A model generated the notes under the pieces. That model did not search any database, was not told the origin of the DNA, and saw nothing but the letters and a program-made list of their open reading frames with translations. A stretch of DNA of 64,000 nucleotides from Nocardioides panacis. Its GTDB lineage: Bacteria; Actinomycetota; Actinomycetes; Propionibacteriales; Nocardioidaceae. Of the stretch, positions 4,343 to 51,040 are shown one piece after another. The stretch covers positions 186,001-250,000 of the forward strand of contig NZ_CP077062.1 of assembly GCF_019039255.1 (NCBI RefSeq), in the 5' to 3' direction. Made by a program: the position numbers and the translations under genes. Position 1 is the first letter of the stretch. Every line of letters starts with the position of its first letter.

Positions 4343-4822
4343 TCACAGGCTCCAGTCGACGATGCTGGTGCGGCGGTCGGAGCCCATCGAGCCGTCCGCG
4401 CCGTACGTCGGGGACTTCTCGGTGAGGGAGAGCAGGGTGGCCTGCGCGGCCTGGTAGCCGGCGGTCAGCAGCACGCGGTTGCTCTGCGACATCTCGCTGA
4501 TCTGGGTGGCGACGGTGGTGAACGCCTCGCGGTGGTCGAGCCAGATGGCCCGCCACGGCTCCTCGCTGGCCCCGGCGATGTCCCGCAGGCTGGCGTTCGG
4601 CTCGAGCCCGAGCTCGGCGGCCACCGTGTCGACGGCGATCGCGCGGATCAGCTCGGCGTCGCGGATCTCGTGCAGCACGGTCTCCACCTCGCGGGCAGCG
4701 ACGGCGAGCCAGTGGGTCCGGCCGCTGGTGAGCACGAGCTGCTCCACCTCGAGCTTGAACAGCAGAAGCTCCAGGAGGTCACGCTCGCGCCACAGGATGG
4801 ACGAGAGGTCTTCCGTGGACAT
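4343..4822 (-). CDS. flgN: FlgN-family flagellar export chaperone
   Basis: FlgN proteins keep the hook-associated proteins FlgK and FlgL export-competent. This 159-residue all-helical protein starts at ATG 4822 (MSTEDLSSILWRERDLLELL). It has a conserved early segment LLLFKLEVEQLVL and a hydrophilic C-terminus. The reading frame stays open further upstream to 4972, but that stretch covers the promoter at 4862-4888 and lacks FlgN similarity, so 4822 is chosen. It is the first gene of the leftward operon, directly before flgK, as expected for the chaperone. Confidence 0.85.
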   Translation of the reverse strand: MSTEDLSSILWRERDLLELLLFKLEVEQLVLTSGRTHWLAVAAREVETVLHEIRDAELIRAIAVDTVAAELGLEPNASLRDIAGASEEPWRAIWLDHREAFTTVATQISEMSQSNRVLLTAGYQAAQATLLSLTEKSPTYGADGSMGSDRRTSIVDWSL

Positions 4823-4861: not shown

Positions 4862-4888
4862 TATCGGCCGTGCCCCCCGCGTCCTGAG
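4862..4888 (-). promoter_or_regulatory. FliA-type promoter of the flgN operon
   Basis: Read on the minus strand, CTCA (4888-4885) is followed by 16 bases and GCCGATA (4868-4862), 40 bases before the flgN ATG. This matches the CTCA-N15/17-GCCGATAA pattern known, from memory, for FliA-dependent promoters of Actinoplanes missouriensis. It also has the same 16-base spacing as the other flagellar promoters in this window. Confidence 0.75.
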
Positions 4889-5231
4889 CAAAAAGGTACA
4901 GAGGATGGCCCGGAAGGCCCAGGTTTCGGGGGAGTGGCCCGAGTGGTCCAGAGCACCCCACCCGAATGCCAACGGTGTGAGTAGTCATGAATGACTACCT
5001 GCTCGTAAAGCCTTTTTGACCGATACGGACTATCAAGCCCCAGAAAACAGGCAGACAACCCAAAAGCCGCGTCATGAACCTGCGAGAACCGGTTCCTTAC
5101 TCATGTGCGCTCCTACCTGACTCCCCCCCCAGTCACCGACCCAGGCCCCCGCGGCGGCCTCGTCGGTCGCCCCCGCCGCGGTCGACGTCGACGACCTGGT
5201 CCGTCGCCACCTCCCGCTCGTCGGTCACGCC
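4889..5231. other. Divergent intergenic region and unassigned N-terminal coding stretch of the sigma factor
   Basis: This region separates the leftward flgN operon from the rightward sigma gene. It holds the 8+8 palindrome at 4981-4998. Just downstream is a relatively AT-rich stretch with ACCGATAC (5019-5026), which resembles a -10 box but lacks a CTCA at the right distance. A 10-bp palindrome GAACCGGTTC lies at 5086-5095. From about 5121 onward the sequence, in the sigma frame, already encodes sigma-like protein (DVDDLVRRHLPLVGHAVRET), so the true sigma start is probably near 5105. Confidence 0.5.
4981..4998. promoter_or_regulatory. Perfect 8-bp palindrome, candidate operator of the sigma gene
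   Basis: GTAGTCAT and ATGACTAC are separated by only two bases (GA). It lies about 105 bases before the earliest plausible sigma-gene start and about 90 bases upstream of the flgN promoter. A perfect 18-bp dyad in a divergent flagellar intergenic region is a good candidate for a master-regulator site. No regulator for it is encoded nearby. Confidence 0.45.
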
Positions 5232-5999
5232 GTGCGCGAGACCATGTCCCGGGTTCCCGGTCACGTGAACCGCGACGACCTGACCTCCGCCGGCATGATG
5301 GCGCTGGTCCAGGCGGCCCAGTCGTTCGACCCGACCCGGGGCGCCGCGTTCTCCACCCACGCCTCCACCCGCATCCGCGGCGCGATCGTCGACGAGCTCC
5401 GCGGGCTGGACTGGGCGAGCCGCTCGGTGCGCCGCCGGGCCCGCCAGGTCGACGACACCCGCGGCCGCATCGCCGCGACCCTGGGCCGTCCGGCCGAGGA
5501 CCACGAGGTGGCCGCCGCCCTGGGCATCGGGACCAGCGAGCTGTCCGCGCACCGTGAGGACGTCGCCCGCGCGTCGGTCGTCTCCCTCCAGGGCTTCGAC
5601 GAGACCGGCATCGACGACCTGCTGCCGGCGCACACCGTCACCCCCGCCGACGAGATCGAGCAGCGCGAGCGGGTGGCCTACCTGCACGACGCGGTCGAGC
5701 ACCTGCCCGAGCGGCTGCGCGTGGTCGTGGAGGGCTACTTCTTCCGCGACCTGCCGATGGCCGAGCTGGCCGCGGAGCTCGGTGTCTCCGAGAGCCGGAT
5801 CTCCCAGCTGCGCGCCGAGGCGATCGTGCTGATGCGCGGCGCGATGAACGCGGCCCTCGAGCCCGAGCTGGCCGAGCGTCACGACCGGCCGCAGGGCTGC
5901 GCCGCACGCCGCAAGGAGGCGTACTACGCCAGCGTGGCCAGCAACCGCAGCTTCGCGGCCCGGCTGACCCACACGCACGTCGCCTCGCACACCGCCTGA
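5232..5999 (+). CDS. fliA: FliA/WhiG-family flagellar sigma factor
   Basis: This sigma-70-family (group 3, sigma-28-like) factor is expected to direct RNA polymerase to late flagellar promoters. Region 2 is visible at the start (DLTSAGMMALVQAAQSFD, FSTHASTRIRGAIVDELRGLDW). Region 3 follows (RGRIAATLGRPAEDHEVAAALG), then region 4 (HLPERLRVVVEGYFFRDLPM, ELGVSESRISQLRAEA). From GTG 5232 it has 255 residues, but sigma-like sequence continues upstream in frame to 5121, where a TGA (5118-5120) blocks it. If one C is removed from the run of eight at 5123-5130, the frame joins GTG 5105, giving about 42 more residues. I therefore suspect the true start is 5105. It lies directly before flagellin. Confidence 0.88.
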   Translation: MRETMSRVPGHVNRDDLTSAGMMALVQAAQSFDPTRGAAFSTHASTRIRGAIVDELRGLDWASRSVRRRARQVDDTRGRIAATLGRPAEDHEVAAALGIGTSELSAHREDVARASVVSLQGFDETGIDDLLPAHTVTPADEIEQRERVAYLHDAVEHLPERLRVVVEGYFFRDLPMAELAAELGVSESRISQLRAEAIVLMRGAMNAALEPELAERHDRPQGCAARRKEAYYASVASNRSFAARLTHTHVASHTA

Positions 6000-6029: not shown

Positions 6030-6057
6030 CTCAGTTCGGGTCGGCACTTGCCGAAGT
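6030..6057 (+). promoter_or_regulatory. FliA-type promoter of fliC
   Basis: CTCA (6030-6033), 16 bases, then GCCGAAGT (6050-6057), about 60 bases before the flagellin ATG. The spacing and boxes match those before flgN and flgB. The predicted transcript leader would contain the CsrA-like hairpin at 6069-6086. Confidence 0.75.
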
Positions 6058-9679: not shown

Positions 9680-9706
9680 CTCAGGTCCTTTGTCCCGTTG
9701 CCGACA
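9680..9706 (+). promoter_or_regulatory. FliA-type promoter of the flgB basal-body operon
   Basis: CTCA (9680-9683), 16 bases, GCCGACA (9700-9706), 73 bases before flgB. The boxes agree with the flgN and fliC promoters, with C replacing T or A after GCCGA. If it is used, early basal-body genes are under the same sigma factor as flagellin, unlike the enteric hierarchy. Confidence 0.65.
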
Positions 9707-19595: not shown

Positions 19596-19623
19596 TTCAG
19601 GTCCGGAGCTCTCCGGCCGATGA
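19596..19623 (+). promoter_or_regulatory. Probable FliA-type promoter of flbD-mot-fli operon
   Basis: TTCA (19596-19599; the consensus has CTCA), 16 bases, then GCCGATGA (19616-19623), 57 bases before the flbD ATG. The -10-like box is excellent and the spacing identical to the other sites; the -35-like box has one mismatch. It rules out a start codon at 19620. Confidence 0.6.
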
Positions 19624-22135: not shown

Positions 22136-22163
22136 CTCAGGTGACCGGGTCGCCGACCGATAC
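22136..22163 (+). promoter_or_regulatory. Weak FliA-type promoter before fliM
   Basis: CTCA (22136-22139), 16 bases, ACCGATAC (22156-22163). The spacing is exact, and the -10-like box differs only in its first base. It lies in the 111-base gap before fliM but ends only eight bases before GTG 22171, which would give a nearly leaderless mRNA. I therefore rate it below the other sites. Confidence 0.35.
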
Positions 22164-22170
22164 AGGACCC

Positions 22171-23134
22171 GTGACCGACACCAGCACCCCCTCCCGGCGG
22201 GCGGACGCGCCGTCCTCCGAGCGCCGCCGTCGGTCCCGCTCGACCGGTGTGGTGTCGTCCTACGACTTCCGTCGCCCGGTCAACCTGTCGCGGGAGAACT
22301 CGCGCACCCTGCACCTCGTCTTCGAGACCTTCGGCCGCCAGGCGTCCACGGTGCTGACGTCCGCGCTCCGCTCGGTCTGCCACGTCGAGCTCACCTCCGT
22401 GGACCAGGTGGCCTACTCCGACTACGTGGGCTCGCTCGGCGACCCGACGTACATGAGCGTGTTCTCGATGGAGCCGGTGACCCAGAAGGCGGTCCTCGAG
22501 ACCCCGCTCGCGGTCACCATGACCTGCATCGACAACCTGCTCGGCGGCCGGGGGGACCGGACCGCAGCCGGAGCGGCCCCTGACCGACCTGGAGGACGCC
22601 GTCATCGGTCGCCTCTACGAGAAGCTGGTCGACGAGGTGCGGGTCGCCTTCGAGAACCTGGTGCCCCTGGAGCCGACCATCACCGGCGTGGAGTACAGCC
22701 CGCAGCTGGCCCAGGTCGCCGGCGCGTCCGACATGATGATCGTGGCGCGCTTCCTGCTGGTGCGGGGCGTCCACGAGCACCCGCTCTCCCTGTGCATCTC
22801 GTTCTCCGGCCTGCTGCCGTTCCTCAAGGTCGCCGACTCCGCCGACAACGTGAGCGACCGGGACCGTGCCCGCCGCCAGGAGGCCCGCACCCGGCTCACC
22901 GCAGGTCTGCAGGAGATCCCGGTCGACGTGTCCGTGCGGTTCCGCGCGACCGGTGCCGACCCGATGGAGCTCGCCGGCCTGCAGGTCGGCGACGTGGTCC
23001 GGCTCGCGCACCCCTCCCAGGCCCCTCTCGACGTGACCGCTGCCGACGTCGTGTTCGCCCATGCCACCCCCGGCCTGCAGGGGCGGCGTCTCGCCGCCCT
23101 CGTCGTCGCGCCCTCGAACCAGGAGAACTCATGA
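22171..23134 (+). CDS. fliM: Flagellar motor switch protein FliM (one-base frameshift)
   Basis: FliM receives CheY-P and forms the C-ring. The N-terminal part has YDFRRPVNLSRENSRTLHLV and FETFGRQASTVL. After IDNLLGGRG the frame breaks at the run of six G (22550-22555). With five G it continues TGPQPERPLTDLEDAVIGRLY, then VPLEPTITGVEYSPQLAQVA and a SpoA-type C-terminal domain, for 320 residues. The length and both halves are normal, so I read this as an assembly error. GTG 22171 is preferred; GTG 22141 is an alternative. The N-terminal EIDAL-type CheY-binding motif of other FliM proteins is not evident. It overlaps fliN by four bases. Confidence 0.9.
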
Positions 23135-26385: not shown

Positions 26386-27549
26386 GTGGCTAGCGAGGAC
26401 AAGTCCGAGAAGGCGACTCCCAAGAAGCTCAAGGACAGTCGCAAGGAGGGCCGGGTCGCCCGCACCCAGGAGCTCGGCGCCTGGGCCTCGATCCTGGCGG
26501 TCGCGCTGTCCATCCAGACGATGACCTCGATCGGGATGGGCAAGGTCCAGGCCCTGCTGACCACCACGCTGCGGATGATCGTCTCGCCCGACCCGCACGA
26601 CATGCTCCAGCTGCTCCGGGAGGGCAGCGGCCTCGCGCTCATGCTGTCCCTGGCCATGGGGGCCGGGGTGATGGTGATCGGGGTGGCCTCCGCGGTCGCC
26701 CAGGGCGGGCTGTTCTTCGCCACCAAGTCGATGAAGCCCAAGTGGTCGCGGCTCAACCCCCTGGAGGGCATCAAGCGGATCTTCGGCCCGCACGCCCTCT
26801 GGGAGGGCGTGAAGATGCTGCTGAAGAGCGCGCTGGTCGGCTTCTTCGTCTGGCGCGCGATCGTCGGCCTGATGCCGCTGGTCGGCGGTCTCGTCCCGCT
26901 GCCGGTGGCGATGCAGATCGCCGGGTCGGCGGCCACCGGGCTGATGCGCGACGTCGCGCTCGCCGGCCTCGTCGCCGCCGGGGCGGACTACGCCGTGCAG
27001 CGCCGGCGCACCGGCAAGCAGGTCCGGATGACCAAGAAGGAGGTGCGCGACGAGCACAAGCAGAGCGAGGGCGACCCGATGATGAAGGGCCAGATCCGCT
27101 CGCGCCAGCTCGCCTCCGCGCGCAACCGGATGATGGCCGACGTACCGCTGGCGGACGTGGTGCTGGTGAACCCCACCCACGTCGCCGTCGCGCTGCGCTA
27201 CGACCCCACCAAGGGCACCCCGCGGGTGGTCGCCAAGGGCGCCGGCGTGGTCGCCGCCCGGATCCGGGAGATCGCGGAGACCAGCAAGGTCGCCATGGTC
27301 GAGGACGTCCCGCTGGCCCGCGCGCTCTACACCGGGTGCGAGGTCGGTCACGAGATCCCGCCGCAGCTCTACCAGGCCGTCGCCCAGGTCCTCGCGTTCG
27401 TGCTCAGCATGCGCGCCACCGGCGCGCCCGCAGGCCGGCACCGGAGCCCGCGCACCGGGTTCGAGCCGATCCCCGACGTGCCCCGCGCCGGGCGCCGGGT
27501 GCGGCCGGTCCCCGTCGACTCCTCAGGTCTGGCCGCCGTCGGCCGATAG
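26386..27549 (+). CDS. flhB: Flagellar export switch protein FlhB
   Basis: FlhB sets substrate specificity of the export gate and is processed by FliK signalling. The protein has 387 residues. It starts EDKSEKATPKKLKDSRKEGRV, the canonical N-terminus. Four membrane helices follow, and then a cytoplasmic domain with the self-cleavage motif NPTH (Asn262) in VVLVNPTHVAVALRYDP. It ends VPLARALYTGCEVGHEIPPQLYQAVAQVLAFV and a 40-residue proline-rich tail. The start is GTG 26386. Confidence 0.95.
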   Translation: MASEDKSEKATPKKLKDSRKEGRVARTQELGAWASILAVALSIQTMTSIGMGKVQALLTTTLRMIVSPDPHDMLQLLREGSGLALMLSLAMGAGVMVIGVASAVAQGGLFFATKSMKPKWSRLNPLEGIKRIFGPHALWEGVKMLLKSALVGFFVWRAIVGLMPLVGGLVPLPVAMQIAGSAATGLMRDVALAGLVAAGADYAVQRRRTGKQVRMTKKEVRDEHKQSEGDPMMKGQIRSRQLASARNRMMADVPLADVVLVNPTHVAVALRYDPTKGTPRVVAKGAGVVAARIREIAETSKVAMVEDVPLARALYTGCEVGHEIPPQLYQAVAQVLAFVLSMRATGAPAGRHRSPRTGFEPIPDVPRAGRRVRPVPVDSSGLAAVGR

Positions 27550-27649: not shown

Positions 27650-29726
27650 GTGTCGCACATCCAGAACGCGGCCCACTCCACCCGGCTCCCGGGTCGCGGC
27701 GCCGTGATCGGCGTCCCGATCGCCGTCGTCGGCATCGTGGTGATGCTCGTCGTACCGCTGCCCCCGGTGCTGCTGGACGTGCTGATCGCCTTCAACATCA
27801 CCTTCGCACTGCTGGTCCTGCTCACCGCGATGTTCGTGCACCGGGCGCTGGACTTCTCCTCGTTCCCGGCCCTGATCCTGGTCGCCACCCTGTTCCGCCT
27901 CGCGCTCAACGTCAGCGCCAGCCGGCTGGTGCTGCTGGACGGGTACGCCGGCAAGGTGATCGACACGTTCGGCCACTTCGTCATCGGCGGCTCGCTGATC
28001 GTCGGCATCATCGTGTTCTCGATCCTGGTGGTCATCCAGTTCGTGGTGGTCACCAACGGTGCGGGCCGGGTCGCCGAGGTCGGCGCCCGCTTCCACGCTG
28101 GACGCGATGCCCGGCAAGCAGATGGCCATCGACGCCGACCTGAACTCCGGCCTGATCGACGACGACGAGGCACGCCGCCGACGGGCCGACGTCTCCGGCG
28201 AGGCCGACTTCTACGGCGCGATGGACGGCGCCTCGAAGTTCGTCAAGGGCGACGCGATCGCCGCCATCATCATCACGGTCGTCAACCTGCTGGGCGGCTT
28301 CACCGTCGGCATCGTGCAGAAGGGCCTCTCGTTCTCCGAGGCCATGCACACCTACAGCCTGCTGACGATCGGTGACGGCCTGGTCTCCCAGGTGCCCGCG
28401 CTGCTGCTCTCGGTGGCCACCGGCCTGATCGTGACCCGGGCGACCGGCGGCACGGACATGGGCACCGACCTGGTCGGCCAGCTGACCCGCTACAAGCAGC
28501 CGATGCGGATCGCCGGCTTCGGCGCGCTCGGCCTGTGCCTGATCCCCGGCATCCCCAAGCTCCCGTTCCTGCTCGCCGGCGGCGCCATGATGCTGCTCTC
28601 CTCGCGCCACCAGAGCGCGCCGGACACCGGCCCCGAGCCCACCGCCGCCGAGCTCGCGCTGCCGTCCCCGGACTCGGTCGAGGCGATCATCGAGGACATC
28701 CGGGTCGACCCGCTGGAGATCGAGCTGGCGGCCGACCTGATCGACCTGGTCGACAAGGGCGCCGGGGGAGACCTGCTGGACCGGGTCAAGTCGCTGCGCC
28801 GCAAGGTCGCGACCGACCTGGGCGTCGTGGTCCCGCCGGTGCGCACCCGCGACAACCTGGACCTGCCCCTGCACACCTACGCGATCCGGCTCTTCGGCGT
28901 CGAGGTCGCCCGCGGCGAGGCGCCCCCCGGCACCGTGCTCGCGATCGGCGACCGCCTCGACGGACTTGTCGGTCGGCCCACCGTGGAGCCGGTGTTCGGC
29001 CTGGCCGCCATGTGGGTCCCGGCCGAGCTGGCCAACCGGGCCGAGCTGCTCGGCGCGACGGTCGTCGACCGGTCCTCGGTGCTCACCACCCACCTCGCCG
29101 AGGTGGTGCGCAGCTACGCCGCCCAGCTCCTGGGCCGCGAGGAGGTCAAGATGCTGACCGACGCCGTACGCCGCACCCACCCGTCCGCCGTCGACGAGCT
29201 GACACCCGCGCTGCTCAGCCTCGGCGAGATCCAGCAGGTCCTGCAGTCGCTGCTCGACGAGAGCGTGTCGATCCGCGACCTGGCCCGGATTTTCGAGGCG
29301 CTGTCCACCCGCGCCCGGGTCAGCAAGGACCTCGACGGCCTGGTCACCGCGGCCCGCGAGACCCTCGGGCTGGCCGTCGTCGCGCCGCACCTGCGCGACG
29401 GCACCCTGCCGGTGCTCAGCTTCGACCCGAGCCTGGAGCAGCGACTGCTCGAGGCGCTGCGGGTCACCGAGGGCGGCGGCTTCCTCGCCCTGGACGTCGA
29501 GCTCTCGCAGGCGCTGATGAACGACCTCACGGCGCGCAACCGGCAAGCCGAGGAGCAGAACATCTCCGCGGTCCTGGTCTGCGCCCCGCAGGTGCGGCCC
29601 GCCGTCCGCCGGCTCGTGGCCACCTCCCTGCCCCGGCTCCCCGTGCTGTCGTACGGCGAGCTGAGCGGCCCGATCCAGATCCAGTCCGTCGGCGTCGTCG
29701 GGGGCCAGGCCCCCGTGCTCGCCTGA
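27650..29726 (+). CDS. flhA: Flagellar export apparatus protein FlhA (one-base frameshift)
   Basis: FlhA is the large export-gate component with a ninefold cytoplasmic docking ring. The first part has VVPLPPVLLDVLIAFNITFALLVLL in content and FPALILVATLFRLALNVSASRLVLL. The frame breaks at TTCCACGCT (28093-28094). Without one C it reads [20 protein letters not shown], the FHIPEP signature found in every FlhA. The C-terminal cytoplasmic domain then runs to 29726, for 691 residues in all. AAAGG lies eight bases before GTG 27650. A perfect hairpin (CCTCCCC/GGGGAGG, 27615-27630) sits in the gap after flhB. Confidence 0.93.
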
Positions 29727-29764
29727 CCCGTCCGCCCGCCCCGACCACCTGACGTGAGGTCCCG

Positions 29765-30010
29765 ATGAACGTGTTCGCCGCACCGGTCATGCTCGCCGCC
29801 GCCGCGGTCAGCGCACCTGCCTTCTGGGGGGCGTTCGTCGACGGGACCACCGAGCCGATGACCGCGTTCACCCGCTTCGCCGTCTGCGCGCTGCTCGCCT
29901 GGGCCGGGATGTCCGTGGTGCTGATGCTCGTCGGACCGGCGCCCCGGCAGGAGCCGAGCGCCCTGGACGGCGCCCAGGACCCCTCGTCCGCGGAGTCCGC
30001 CCCCGTCTGA
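29765..30010 (+). CDS. Small membrane protein after flhA, function unknown
   Basis: This 81-residue protein has two hydrophobic segments (VFAAPVMLAAAAVSAPAFWGAF, and FAVCALLAWAGMSVVLMLVG) and a short acidic tail. I do not recognise a family. It is 38 bases after flhA in the same direction and may be the last gene of the flagellar operon. Small two-helix proteins do occur at this place in actinobacterial flagellar clusters, but no role can be assigned. Confidence 0.6.
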   Translation: MNVFAAPVMLAAAAVSAPAFWGAFVDGTTEPMTAFTRFAVCALLAWAGMSVVLMLVGPAPRQEPSALDGAQDPSSAESAPV

Positions 30011-30037
30011 CCCCGTCTGACCCCGTCTGCCCCCCGT

Positions 30038-30125
30038 CGACCCGGGCCCCGTGCAACCCCGACCCGGGCCCCGTACGACGCCGACCCGGGCCGGAGCTCA
30101 CCTCGACCCGGGCCAGGTGAGGTCG
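30038..30125. repeat. Four tandem units of exactly 22 bp with CGACCCGGGCC core
   Basis: The core CGACCCGGGCC starts at 30038, 30060, 30082 and 30104, an exact 22-base period; the other 11 bases of each unit differ. The core contains the palindrome CCCGGG. The array lies between the converging ends of the flagellar operon and the nuclease gene, in a 285-base non-coding stretch. It is preceded by three GACCCCGTCTG-type 10-base repeats (about 30001-30030). Bases 30126-30295 show nothing else I can assign. Confidence 0.6.
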
Positions 30126-30295
30126 CGCGGCAGCCGCAGGCCCGGCGGTGCACGTCGAGACGCGGCCGCGGGTTCGGGCGCGAGGAACGCCGTCGGCCAC
30201 GGACCGTCGCCCACCGGTTCTCCTCCCACACGAGCGTGCGGCTGCACCGGCCGTCGGCGGACAGCAGGCCGGCCACCCTGCCGGCGCGGGACGGG

Positions 30296-31519
30296 TCAGC
30301 CGGTGGCGGCGGCGGGGAAGGTGCCCGCGTCGATGCTCGCGCGGGTCGACACCACGGGGTGGTCGGTGGTCCGGTCCACGAGCGGGCTGCGGTCCTCGTC
30401 GTAGGACGAGAAGCGCACCCCGGGGGACCCGAAGACCCAGTCGACGGCCCGCGGCTCCTGGGCGTCGCACCCGCCGGCGCCGTTGCTGCCGCCGCGGGCC
30501 GCGACCATCGAGGTCCCGGACGTCAGTGCGCAGAAGTAGCTGTCCCGCTCGTTCATGTCGCCGGTGAGGAACACCGGGATGCCGGTGGCGGTGAGCCGGT
30601 TCATCAGCGCGACCTCGACCGCGGTCGCCTGGTCCCGCCAGCGCTGCTGGCCGTGGTAGCGCCGGGTGTCGGCCGGGTTGTGGACGTTGGCGAAGTACGC
30701 CGTCAGGCCGGTCGCCCGGTGCCGCAGCAGGACCACGGGCATCCGGCGACGGTTGCCGTCGAAGTAGGGGACCGAGAACGTCTCGGGGCGGACCAGCTCC
30801 CACACCGACGAGCGCCAGGCCACCGAGTTCTCGGCCTCGCGGGGGGTGAGCCGGGTGCCGGGGTAGACGTCGTAGCCGGGGCTGAGCCGCTGCAGCTCGC
30901 GCAGCTGGTCGGACTGCAGCTCCTGGAACCCGACGACGTCGACGTCGTGCCGGCCGAGCAGGTCGACCACGCCCGCCATCCGGGTCACCCCGGACTGCTT
31001 GCCGCGGGCGCCGCCCCGGGTGTGGCTGCTGCCGAGCACGTTGAACGAGCTGATCGTGAAGTCGGCGGTCGGGCCGCCGGGCGTCGGCGGGGGCGTCGTA
31101 CCGGGCGTGGGGTCCGGCGTCGGGACGACCGGGTCGGTCCACGGGTCGCTGCCCGGGGCGGGGGCCACCGTCGAGGACGGTACGTCGGAGGGCGGGACCC
31201 AGGGGACGTACCCGTTGTCGAGGCTGCCCGGGTCCGGCAGGCCGGCGGTCGCGAGCCAGGCTGCGAGGTCGGCGTCGCGGGCGGAGGCACTGGGCGCCCG
31301 GGCCGTGGTGGCGGCCGGACGGGCCACGGGGGTGGGCCGCGCGGTGATCGTCACGGCGACCGTGGGCTGGCGCAGGGGCAGCTGCGCGGAGGTGCTGTCC
31401 GAGACCGGGCGCGGGGGCGCGGGGTCGCCGCCCCACGCGCCGAGGAGGACCGAGCCCAGCAGGACGCCGGTCAGCGCGACGGCTGCTCCCGCGGTCGTCG
31501 TGGCGGTCGCTCGGCTCAA
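30296..31519 (-). CDS. Secreted endonuclease/exonuclease/phosphatase-family protein
   Basis: The 407-residue protein begins with a signal-anchor-like hydrophobic segment (about 8-30, AGAAVALTGVLLGSVLLGAW). A long Pro/Thr/Ala-rich linker runs to about 145, followed by an EEP domain. Motifs: ISSFNVLGSSH, VVGFQELQ (metal-binding Glu), VHNPAD, LTGDMNERD (catalytic Asp-Asn), VDWVF, and the final TDHPVV (catalytic Asp-His). Members include DNase I-like nucleases and lipid phosphatases; the substrate cannot be told. It is outside the cell or on the wall. A FliA-type promoter lies 49 bases upstream, so it may be made together with the flagellum. Confidence 0.85.
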   Translation of the reverse strand: MSRATATTTAGAAVALTGVLLGSVLLGAWGGDPAPPRPVSDSTSAQLPLRQPTVAVTITARPTPVARPAATTARAPSASARDADLAAWLATAGLPDPGSLDNGYVPWVPPSDVPSSTVAPAPGSDPWTDPVVPTPDPTPGTTPPPTPGGPTADFTISSFNVLGSSHTRGGARGKQSGVTRMAGVVDLLGRHDVDVVGFQELQSDQLRELQRLSPGYDVYPGTRLTPREAENSVAWRSSVWELVRPETFSVPYFDGNRRRMPVVLLRHRATGLTAYFANVHNPADTRRYHGQQRWRDQATAVEVALMNRLTATGIPVFLTGDMNERDSYFCALTSGTSMVAARGGSNGAGGCDAQEPRAVDWVFGSPGVRFSSYDEDRSPLVDRTTDHPVVSTRASIDAGTFPAAATG

Positions 31520-31567
31520 CTCGTTCTCCAGCGCAGGTCGGGGCGCCCGGGCAGGCGCTCCCTCGAA

Positions 31568-31594
31568 GATCGGCCGGGACGACCCGGTCCTGAG
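31568..31594 (-). promoter_or_regulatory. FliA-type promoter of the secreted EEP-family gene
   Basis: On the minus strand CTCA (31594-31591) is followed by exactly 16 bases and GCCGATC (31574-31568), 49 bases before the start at 31519. Boxes and spacing are as good as those of flgN and fliC, although the gene is not a structural flagellar gene. Confidence 0.65.
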
Positions 31595-31650
31595 GAGTTG
31601 CCGGGCGCCGATTGGGTGATCGACGGGCGGTCGGGGACGATGGGGGCGAG

Positions 31651-34161
31651 ATGTCTCTCCTCGACCGCCTTCCCGCCGACTCGGACGACGCCGACGCGCT
31701 GTTCGAGGCGTTCGGCACCTGGGCCGAGGAGCAGGGCCTGAGCCTCTACCCCGCGCAGGAGGAGGCCCTGATCGAGGTCGTCACCGGCGCGAACGTCATC
31801 CTCAGCACCCCCACCGGCACCGGCAAGAGCCTGGTCGCCACCGGGGCGCACTTCGCGGCCCTGGCCCGCGGCCAGCGCACCTTCTACACCGCACCGATCA
31901 AGGCGCTGGTCTCGGAGAAGTTCTTCGCGCTGATCGCGGTCTTCGGCCCCGACAACGTCGGCATGCTGACCGGCGACGCGGCGGTCAACGCGCAGGCGCC
32001 GATCATCTGCTGCACCGCCGAGGTGCTCGCCAACATCGCCCTGCGGGAGGGGGCGAGCGCGGACATCGGCCAGGTGGTGATGGACGAGTTCCACTTCTAC
32101 TCCGAGCCGGACCGCGGCTGGGCCTGGCAGGTCCCGCTCATCGAGCTGCCGCAGGCGCAGTTCGTGCTGATGTCCGCGACGCTCGGCGACGTCACCCGGT
32201 TCGTGGACGACCTGAGCCGCCGTACCGGACGCAACACCGCGGTCGTCAGCAGCGCGACCCGGCCGGTGCCGCTGACCTACCTGTGGGCGCTCACCCCGAT
32301 GCACGAGACGATCGAGGAGCTGCTGACCACCCACCAGGCCCCGGTGTACGTCGTGCACTTCACCCAGGCCTCGGCGCTCGAGCGGGCGCAGGCGCTCACC
32401 AGCATCAACGTGTGCACCCGCGAGGAGAAGGACAAGATCGCCGAGCTGATCGGCGGCTTCCGGTTCAGCCCGGGGTTCGGCAAGACCCTGTCCCGGCTGG
32501 TGAAGCACGGCATCGGCGTGCACCACGCCGGCATGCTCCCGAAGTACCGCCGGCTCGTCGAGCAGCTCGCGCAGGCCGGCCTGCTCAAGGTGATCTGCGG
32601 CACCGACACCCTCGGCGTCGGCATCAACGTGCCGATCCGCACGGTCGTGTTCACCGGGCTGAGCAAGTACGACGGGCGTCGCCAGCGGATGCTCAAGGCG
32701 CGCGAGTTCCACCAGATCGCCGGCCGCGCGGGGCGGGCCGGCTTCGACACCGCGGGCACCGTCGTGGTCCAGGCCCCCGAGCACGTCGTGGAGAACCACC
32801 GGCTGGTGCTCAAGGCCGGCGACGACCCCAAGAAGCTCAAGCGGGTGCAGCGCAAGAAGGCGCCCGAGGGCCAGGTGACCTGGAGCGAGGACACGTTCGA
32901 CCGGCTGGTCGTCGCCGAGCCCGAGGCGCTGGTCTCCCGGATGCGGGTCACCCACGCGATGCTGCTCAACGTGATCGCCCGGGAGGGCGACCCGTTCGTG
33001 GCGATGCGCCGGCTGCTGCGCGACAACCACGAGGACCCGCGCTCGCAGGTCCGGCTGGTCCGCCGGGCGATCGCGCAGTACCGCGCGCTGCTCGCCGCCG
33101 GTGTCGTCGAGCGCATCGACCCGCCCGGTCCCGACGGCCGCACCGTGCGGCTCGTCGCGGGGCTGCAGCTCGGCTTCGCGCTGAACCAGCCGCTGTCGAC
33201 GTACGCGCTGGGCGTCTTCGACGTGCTCGACCCCGAGGTGCCGACGTACGCCCTCGACGTCGTCTCCGTCGTCGAGGCCACCCTGGAGGACCCGCGGCCG
33301 GTGCTCGGCGCGCAGGAGCACAAGGCGCGCGGCGAGGCGGTCGGGGAGATGAAGGCCGACGGCATCGAGTACGACGAGCGCATGGAGCTGCTCGACGAGG
33401 TGTCCTGGCCCAAGCCGCTGCAGGACATGCTCGAGCACACCTACGAGGTCTACCGGCGCAGCCACCCGTGGGTCGCCGAGGACGCGCTGTCCCCGAAGTC
33501 GGTGGTCCGCGACATGTACGAGCGCGCGATGACCTTCGCGGAGTACGTCGCGTTCTACGGCCTGACCCGGTCCGAGGGGCTGGTGCTGCGCTACCTCGGC
33601 GACGCCTACCGGGCGCTGCGGCAGACCGTCCCGGACAGCGTGCGAACCGACGACCTCGAGGACATCGTGGAGTGGCTCGGTGCCGTGGTGCGGCAGACCG
33701 ACTCGAGCCTGCTCGACGAGTGGGAGCAGCTCAGCGACCCGACCCGCGTGCTGGAGAAGGACGTCGTCCCGCCCGAACCGGAGAACATCACCGCCAACGA
33801 GCGCGCGTTCACCGTGCTGGTCCGCAACGCGCTGTTCCGCCGGGTCGAGCTGGCCGCGCTGAACCGCTGGCACCAGCTCGGCGAGCTCGAGGCCGAGGCC
33901 GGCTCGACGATGACCGCCGAGGACTGGCGCGAGTCGCTGGCGTCGTACTTTGCGGAGTACGACGCGATCGACACCGGCCCGGACGCGCGCGGGCCGCGGA
34001 TGCTGCTGGTCGAGAAGGTCGGCCGTGCCTGGGAGGTCCAGCAGGTCGTCGGCGACCCGGAGGGCAACCACGACTGGCGGATCACCGCGACCGTCGACCT
34101 CGACGCGTCCGACGCCGAGGGCGAGCTGGTCCTGGACGTCACCGGCCTCGTCCAGCTCTAG
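31651..34161 (+). CDS. DEAD/DEAH-box helicase with DUF3516
   Basis: This 836-residue superfamily 2 helicase is of the Ski2-like type common in actinobacteria. Visible motifs: TPTGTGKS (53-60), YTAPIKALVSEKFF, VMDEFHFYSEPDRGW (motif II, DEFH), LMSATLGD, GVHHAGMLPKYRRLVEQL, and QIAGRAGRAGFDT (motif VI). The C-terminal 400 residues are the DUF3516 region. It probably acts on RNA or on structured nucleic acids; no substrate is known to me. ATG 31651 is preceded by GGGGGCGAG. It is followed by a strong terminator. Confidence 0.93.
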   Translation: MSLLDRLPADSDDADALFEAFGTWAEEQGLSLYPAQEEALIEVVTGANVILSTPTGTGKSLVATGAHFAALARGQRTFYTAPIKALVSEKFFALIAVFGPDNVGMLTGDAAVNAQAPIICCTAEVLANIALREGASADIGQVVMDEFHFYSEPDRGWAWQVPLIELPQAQFVLMSATLGDVTRFVDDLSRRTGRNTAVVSSATRPVPLTYLWALTPMHETIEELLTTHQAPVYVVHFTQASALERAQALTSINVCTREEKDKIAELIGGFRFSPGFGKTLSRLVKHGIGVHHAGMLPKYRRLVEQLAQAGLLKVICGTDTLGVGINVPIRTVVFTGLSKYDGRRQRMLKAREFHQIAGRAGRAGFDTAGTVVVQAPEHVVENHRLVLKAGDDPKKLKRVQRKKAPEGQVTWSEDTFDRLVVAEPEALVSRMRVTHAMLLNVIAREGDPFVAMRRLLRDNHEDPRSQVRLVRRAIAQYRALLAAGVVERIDPPGPDGRTVRLVAGLQLGFALNQPLSTYALGVFDVLDPEVPTYALDVVSVVEATLEDPRPVLGAQEHKARGEAVGEMKADGIEYDERMELLDEVSWPKPLQDMLEHTYEVYRRSHPWVAEDALSPKSVVRDMYERAMTFAEYVAFYGLTRSEGLVLRYLGDAYRALRQTVPDSVRTDDLEDIVEWLGAVVRQTDSSLLDEWEQLSDPTRVLEKDVVPPEPENITANERAFTVLVRNALFRRVELAALNRWHQLGELEAEAGSTMTAEDWRESLASYFAEYDAIDTGPDARGPRMLLVEKVGRAWEVQQVVGDPEGNHDWRITATVDLDASDAEGELVLDVTGLVQL

Positions 34162-50713: not shown

Positions 50714-51040
50714 GTGACCTACGTCATCGCCCAGCCCTGCGTCGACCTGAAGGACCGGGCCTGCGTCGACGAGTGCCCCGTCGACTGCATCTACGAGGGC
50801 AAGCGGATGCTCTACATCCACCCTGACGAGTGCGTCGACTGCGGTGCGTGCGAGCCGGTCTGCCCGGTCGAGGCGATCTTCTACGAGGACGACACCCCGG
50901 AGCAGTGGAAGGACTACTACAACGCCAACGTCGACTTCTTCGACGACCTCGGCTCGCCCGGTGGTGCGGCCAAGCTCGGCGTGATCGACAAGGACCACCC
51001 GCTTATCGCGGCGCTGCCCTTCCCGCAGAACGCCGAATGA
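50714..51040 (+). CDS. fdxA: Ferredoxin FdxA (3Fe-4S/4Fe-4S)
   Basis: This 108-residue actinobacterial seven-iron ferredoxin is an electron carrier. Cluster ligands: ACVDECPVDCIYEGKRMLY and CVDCGACEPVCPVEAIFYED. The start is GTG 50714, with GGGAGGAACAAG before it. Its stop overlaps the dapC start (ATGA), the conserved fdxA-dapC order of actinobacteria. Confidence 0.95.
   Translation: MTYVIAQPCVDLKDRACVDECPVDCIYEGKRMLYIHPDECVDCGACEPVCPVEAIFYEDDTPEQWKDYYNANVDFFDDLGSPGGAAKLGVIDKDHPLIAALPFPQNAE

Follow-up and report, generated by a model that had tools for sequence, protein, structure and literature searches.

The window analyzed here, a stretch of 64,000 nucleotides from the genome of Nocardioides panacis, contains a flagellar gene cluster with a FliA-like sigma factor gene, and a minus-strand gene for a protein of the endonuclease/exonuclease/phosphatase (EEP) family that is preceded by a predicted FliA-type promoter (Table 1). 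The family assignment comes from the only Pfam match in the protein, to PF03372, which scores 54 bits where the cut-off is 24.5. The EEP gene is a single intact open frame with GGAGAA just ahead of its TTG start codon, and a divergent helicase gene begins on the opposite strand at approximately 31651. An earlier note on this DNA had described the product as secreted; the N-terminal hydrophobic segment that such a label calls for is visible by eye in the translation, though the protein may be tethered to the membrane instead of freely released.

Table 1. Features of the EEP locus and of the flagellar cluster in the window
Feature	Position	Strand	Remarks
EEP-family gene, 407 aa	30296..31519	-	N-terminal hydrophobic segment, Pro/Thr-rich linker, C-terminal EEP domain
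Predicted 5' leader	31520..31567	-	GGAGAA shortly upstream of the start codon; read from the sequence itself
FliA-type (sigma-28-like) predicted promoter	31568..31594	-	-35-like CTCAGGACC; 16 nt from CTCA to the -10-like GCCGATC
FliA-like sigma factor, proposed regulator	5232..5999	+	Profile match from about 5196; no ATG/GTG/TTG in frame before 5232
Comparable promoter	4862..4888	-	Before 4343-4822 (flgN-like by position, no NCBIfam match), which heads flgK/flgL-resembling genes
Weaker comparable promoter	6030..6056	+	Before flagellin
Comparable promoter	9680..9706	+	Before flgB-like gene (by eye)
Comparable promoter, one -35 mismatch	19596..19622	+	Before small flbD-like and motA/motB-like genes (by eye)
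Comparable promoter	27522..27548	+	At the end of flhB, ahead of flhA

Profile searches identified flagellin, FlhA, FlhB, FliR, FliM/FliN, FliL, FliP, FliW, CsrA, and FliA in the cluster, while flgN, flgK, flgL, flgB, flbD, motA, and motB were named from the look and position of their sequences. Membership of a FliA regulon presupposes a FliA gene in the same genome, and one is present here, although its frame may be broken near the start: the region 5121-5232 offers no canonical in-frame start codon, and a run of eight C residues lies alongside at 5123-5130. Two further genes, flhA (27650-29726) and fliM (22141-23134), are each split between two frames in this assembly. These breaks were read from the DNA itself, the frame translations, and the split Pfam matches; they may be sequence errors, or else FliA or motility may have been lost in this strain. 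The frame of the EEP gene, by contrast, is unbroken.

The predicted promoter, CTCAGGACCGGGTCGTCCCGGCCGATC at 31594-31568 on the minus strand, was the sole exact CTCA-N16-GCCGATC in the window in a string search. Its presence ahead of the EEP gene, as proposed in the earlier note, was thereby confirmed, and both its orientation and its distance of 49 nt from the TTG start suit a promoter for that gene. The further statement that this was the only nonflagellar gene with the exact motif holds but understates the case, as the flagellar genes of the window have no exact copy either; their sites end in GCCGATA or GCCGATG or carry mismatches. The exact string is by itself not significant, with 0.07 occurrences expected in the window and at least one found in 7 of 100 window shuffles. 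When up to two mismatches to the motif were allowed, the window gave 68 matches against 36.7 expected, a number that no shuffle reached. A scan of 29700-31700 with a strict sigma-70 consensus gave no match and had little power, as shuffles of the same GC-rich stretch also gave next to nothing.

A search of the whole genome (4,901,775 bases) for CTCAGGWC-N9-13-GCCGAT gave five occurrences, compared with one for the reversed control. They precede the flgN-like gene, flhA, the EEP gene, a cheA-like operon with Hpt and HATPase domains by profile, and one gene for an exported-looking protein. The last of these encodes at least 654 residues with no Pfam match and lies behind CTCAGG-N17-GCCGATG (L032 4625-6731; G000:C1:4272624-4274730), which makes it a candidate second nonflagellar member of the FliA regulon. 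A looser search allowing three mismatches was discarded as too noisy, with 161 and 146 matches against 103 and 101 for the reversed patterns.

The window was then scored with matrices. An outside matrix, built from 23 flagellar and chemotaxis sites of other genomes and to which neither this genome nor any EEP gene contributed, ranked the EEP site first in the window (23.4); the best window site without a flagellar gene behind it reached 16.7. This ranking should be read with the origin of the matrix in mind: the 23 sites were picked by hand from the look of the downstream protein, similar ones (L191, L240, L241, and L254) were left out, and the pattern used to collect them was written so as to admit the last base of the window site. 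With a matrix from six flagellar or chemotaxis sites of this genome, the EEP site came only sixth among window sites (18.7), barely above an in-gene site at 50725-50751 (18.2). By the genome count and by both matrices, the EEP site thus resembles the organism's own flagellar promoters.

The same class of motif was followed into related bacteria. CTCANGWY-N12,13-GCCGATV gave, in sums, 97 matches against 13 for the reversed pattern in 14 flagellated genomes, and 15 against 2 in seven unflagellated genomes, where the excess includes CTCAAG-N17 sites. The downstream genes, judged by the N-termini of their products, included flagellin, fliD, flbD-like, flhA, flgN-like, and cheA- or cheB-like genes; profile matches added genes for GGDEF/EAL proteins, for a histidine kinase, and for a family 6 glycosyl hydrolase. 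Because flagellar and chemotaxis genes stand behind the matches, the motif class is taken to be FliA-type. Exported-looking proteins were also seen behind FliA-type sites of flagellated relatives (L217 1430-2500, L211 1148-2527, and L216 1264-2487); these are the family 6 glycosyl hydrolase, a protein whose OmpA match falls below the threshold, and a protein with no assigned family.

Across 294 genomes of the family, an EEP match (1e-40) was found in 157 and FlhA in 108; both occurred in 72, EEP alone in 85, FlhA alone in 36, and neither in 101, where some FlhA-negative calls may be genes missed in incomplete genomes. Upstream regions were scanned for 124 EEP genes from 84 of the 157 EEP-bearing genomes, which leaves nearly thirty of the listed EEP matches and all unlisted ones outside the scan, L013 and L027 among those outside; six mostly weaker loci (L011, L012, L020, L026, L029, and L030), scanned but kept apart from the 124, gave nothing above 10.0. 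With a strong site defined as a score of at least 16.5 within 600 nt upstream, a threshold set after the scores were seen, strong sites preceded 10 of 71 EEP genes in 46 FlhA-positive genomes (the window gene included, nine genomes in all) and none of 53 in 38 FlhA-negative genomes. The difference gives a one-sided Fisher value of 0.0028 with kinship ignored. A Markov null produced no site at 16.5 and three at 15 in 1488 sequences, and over 1000 nt the antisense control gave 0/124 at 17 or above and 2/124 at 15 or above, the reversed control 0/124 and 1/124.

The site is therefore found before EEP genes of flagellated and not of unflagellated relatives, carried by a minority of genes: 61 of the 71 genes in flagellated genomes and 114 of all 124 have no strong site, nor do two other homologous copies in the window's own genome (L014 and L021). 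The earlier note had suggested looking for a conserved motif before the same gene in flagellates, and that expectation was borne out for this minority and not for most of the genes. Since most scanned EEP genes lack the site and 85 of the 157 EEP genomes have no FlhA, EEP enzymes do not need FliA and, as judged from the genomes, have no inherent tie to motility. Seven changes in the state of the site are needed on a quick EEP tree. Four of the strong-site genomes (G262, G274, G302, and G305) are close relatives, and the supported branches leave four independent pairs, too few for a sign test.

These comparisons bear on whether a sigma-28-like string merely happens to fall upstream of the EEP gene. 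The shuffles that contained the exact string are what such an accident would look like, but the genome-wide rarity, the orientation, the distance, the top rank under the outside matrix, and the recurrence in relatives all speak against it, and we consider chance very improbable. The claim that a FliA-type promoter drives the EEP gene is well supported by the genome count, the outside matrix, and the recurrence, and the window gene is likely to be under FliA control.

The individual strong sites (in the window genome, G000, and in G001, G006 with two genes, G081, G235, G262, G274, G302, and G305) differ in their arrangement. An ordinary promoter-to-gene layout was seen for the window gene, for G081, and for the first gene of the G006 tandem set, whereas transcripts of the second G006 gene and of the G001 gene would have almost no leader if their sites are used; in G001 the site has the CTCAAG-N17 form. 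The single clade of G262, G274, G302, and G305 accounts for four of the ten sites, which are situated some 160 nt upstream of the start, in three cases at a position within the end of the upstream reading frame; across the clade the promoter positions are kept and the spacer is variable, and a second element that looks promoter-like by eye lies in between. The weakest is that of G235, 261 nt from the start and overlapping the beginning of a divergent gene. At the place of the G006 site, G004 retains GCCGATG and part of a -35 element, which score a sub-threshold 12.4 (15.1 with a WhiG-class matrix). An unflagellated sister gene in G254 has no site, which is weak evidence because the entire upstream region is rearranged, and the upstream region of G081 aligned poorly with those of G120 and G129. 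At L115, L099, L109, and L113 a second conserved element, TCGGGTAGAGT, stands downstream of the FliA-type site and ahead of the EEP start; it is perhaps a housekeeping promoter.

In addition to the FliA-like gene of the window, the genome carries a WhiG-like gene elsewhere (G000:C1:2449606-2450235), and the element might be read mainly by that sigma factor, with the EEP gene tied to a developmental or pilus program instead of flagella. Among the matches listed for the 294 genomes, the two sigma classes were split by score (at least 213 against at most 201 bits). Of the nine genomes in which an EEP gene has a strong site, six encode both sigma factors, and a distinct motif class goes with the presence of the WhiG-like gene: CTCAAG-N17-GCCGATV gave 17 sites in 9 of 12 genomes with that gene and none in seven that lack it (the reversed pattern had none in any of the 19), a count that is not independent, because the class had been noticed in an earlier search that already covered 17 of those 19 genomes. 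Pilus-type genes, for a type II/IV secretion ATPase and two GspH/N-methylation proteins, stand behind three of the 17 sites, and EEP genes behind another three, in G302, G001, and G004; the G302 protein is 38% identical to that of the window over 261 aligned positions, and the G004 protein is of a more distant kind. Among the remaining sites, some lie before unrelated genes or before the gene of a SpoIID protein, some have no called gene behind them, and one is inside a long reading frame that encodes an unrelated protein. The set, with loci L353, L208, L354, L352, L192, and L362, is a candidate WhiG-like regulon.

Several observations nevertheless weigh against WhiG-like control of the window element. 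It has CTCAGG with N16, and its score is higher under a FliA matrix (18.5) than under the WhiG-class one (16.0), although the two overlap, the cheA-like site receiving 19.8 with the latter; the exact CTCAAG-N17 form is absent from the window genome; and in four unflagellated WhiG-bearing genomes (G003, G005, G254, and G120) the scanned EEP genes have no strong site. Three of the nine strong-site genomes, G305, G081, and G235, have EEP sites and FliA-class matches and no WhiG-class matches, which points to FliA. We regard a mainly WhiG-like reading of the window element as unlikely. FliA is the best candidate for this site, and a WhiG-like input is possible in some relatives.

The nature of the enzyme was approached through its sequence and a structural model. 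Residues N160, E200, H280, D321, N323, D386, and H387 are invariant in an alignment of the EEP protein with its homologs (14 homologs), and we take these acidic, Asn, and His residues to be the active-site residues expected of the family. A model of the EEP domain (residues 146-407 alone, from 31 sequences) had a pLDDT of 95.1. The nearest solved folds were Bacteroides EEP proteins (Z 27.6 to 26.0), followed by TDP2, nocturnin, and others; sphingomyelinases matched at lower values than the other EEP entries (Z 22.5 for human neutral sphingomyelinase and about 20 for bacterial ones). The solved structures closest in sequence are the Bacteroides proteins 3mpr and Bt3783 (4c1r), which also rank among the closest in fold. 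At approximately 20% identity, and with Bt3783 named a mannosyl-6-phosphatase, the substrate does not transfer. NCBIfam gave no family for the EEP protein or for two of its paralogs. The fold neighbors span nucleases, phosphatases, and lipid hydrolases, so that the fold does not fix the substrate. The protein is probably a metal-dependent phosphohydrolase; we judge nucleic acid or another phosphodiester to be its likeliest substrate, with phosphosugar or phospholipid also possible. The nuclease or lipid phosphatase activity and the matrix-loosening role put forward earlier are guesses.

The observations can be joined in a single scheme. The 27-bp element would serve as a promoter for the FliA encoded in the same cluster. 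Once FliA is active during flagellar assembly, RNA polymerase would start near 31560 and produce the EEP mRNA, and the protein would be exported by means of its N-terminal hydrophobic segment. The catalytic domain would then lie outside the membrane on the long Pro/Thr-rich linker, either tethered or released, and motile cells would gain an extracellular activity that cleaves phosphate esters. Cells thus probably make the enzyme on becoming motile, and with good confidence we favor the joint reading of a FliA-driven promoter and an exported EEP phosphohydrolase in motile cells.

A different view of the purpose is compatible with this reading of the promoter. The enzyme might mainly scavenge phosphate or other nutrients, its use of FliA being an accident of timing in a few lineages. 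The family is common in genomes without flagella (85 of the 157 with EEP), and the site is missing from 114 of the 124 genes scanned, as scavenging would have it. Set against this are the roughly seven changes of site state on the tree and the second promoter class, which stands before pilus-type genes and also before EEP genes. We consider scavenging a plausible account, although we lean away from it. A broader proposal is that the exported EEP family of the Nocardioidaceae has repeatedly been recruited both to FliA (flagella, CTCAGG-N16) and to WhiG-like programs (type IV pili, CTCAAG-N17), because cells on the move would need to cleave some phosphate-containing polymer outside the cell, for example DNA or a phosphate-bearing glycan, in order to escape from a matrix or pass through it. 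This is offered tentatively, as a rather doubtful extension of the data. If the scheme and the extension are correct, the flagellar regulon of a large and little-studied group of soil bacteria would gain an exported phosphohydrolase, a rule for the promoters of two related sigma factors within a single family would be suggested, and a link between the onset of motility and remodeling of the surroundings would become testable.

An exported hydrolase linked to FliA is known in principle elsewhere and is not new as such. The flagellar sigma factor SigD of Bacillus subtilis drives genes for exported autolysins, which are cell-wall hydrolases and not EEP enzymes. Our literature search found no EEP enzyme under FliA in the Nocardioidaceae, and none behind the second, WhiG-associated promoter class of that family. 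The earlier statement that no such link had been described accordingly stands for EEP enzymes in these bacteria and fails for FliA-linked exported enzymes at large: according to the available portion of PMC6687942, Serratia phlA and shlA depend partly on FlhDC/FlhD and FliA. PhlA resembles the present case as an exported hydrolase whose gene is co-regulated with late flagellar genes, but it is another enzyme from another phylum and leaves the cell through the flagellar export apparatus (PMC6687942, same portion). The window protein, unlike PhlA, apparently has its own N-terminal export segment.

The Vibrio nuclease Xds is likewise exported, has a C-terminal EEP domain, and is linked to biofilm detachment; it also has LTD and OB domains, of which the OB domain is needed for activity along with EEP, and the available part of PMC6746945 mentions no FliA control of xds. 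Pfam found neither an LTD nor an OB domain in the window protein. The FliA-family sigma factors of Actinoplanes missouriensis are also actinobacterial and act beyond flagella, but in sporangium formation, dormancy, and dehiscence, and no EEP target is named in the accessible text of these reports (PMC13293333, PMC11064477). The Actinoplanes matrix hydrolases GimA and GimB are described in the sections available as activated by TcrA (PMC12691653). Nocardioides was noted, in the part of PMC4255298 at hand, to have a WhiG ortholog and flagellar genes, and the simpler WhiG-bearing actinobacteria reviewed there to encode no FlgM-like protein. As a further observation on the family itself, EEP genes occur both in tandem arrays and as broken copies in this genome and in relatives (L033 3843-5526, L035, L023/L002, and G023:C1:1251953-1257803), which suggests a fast turnover of the family.
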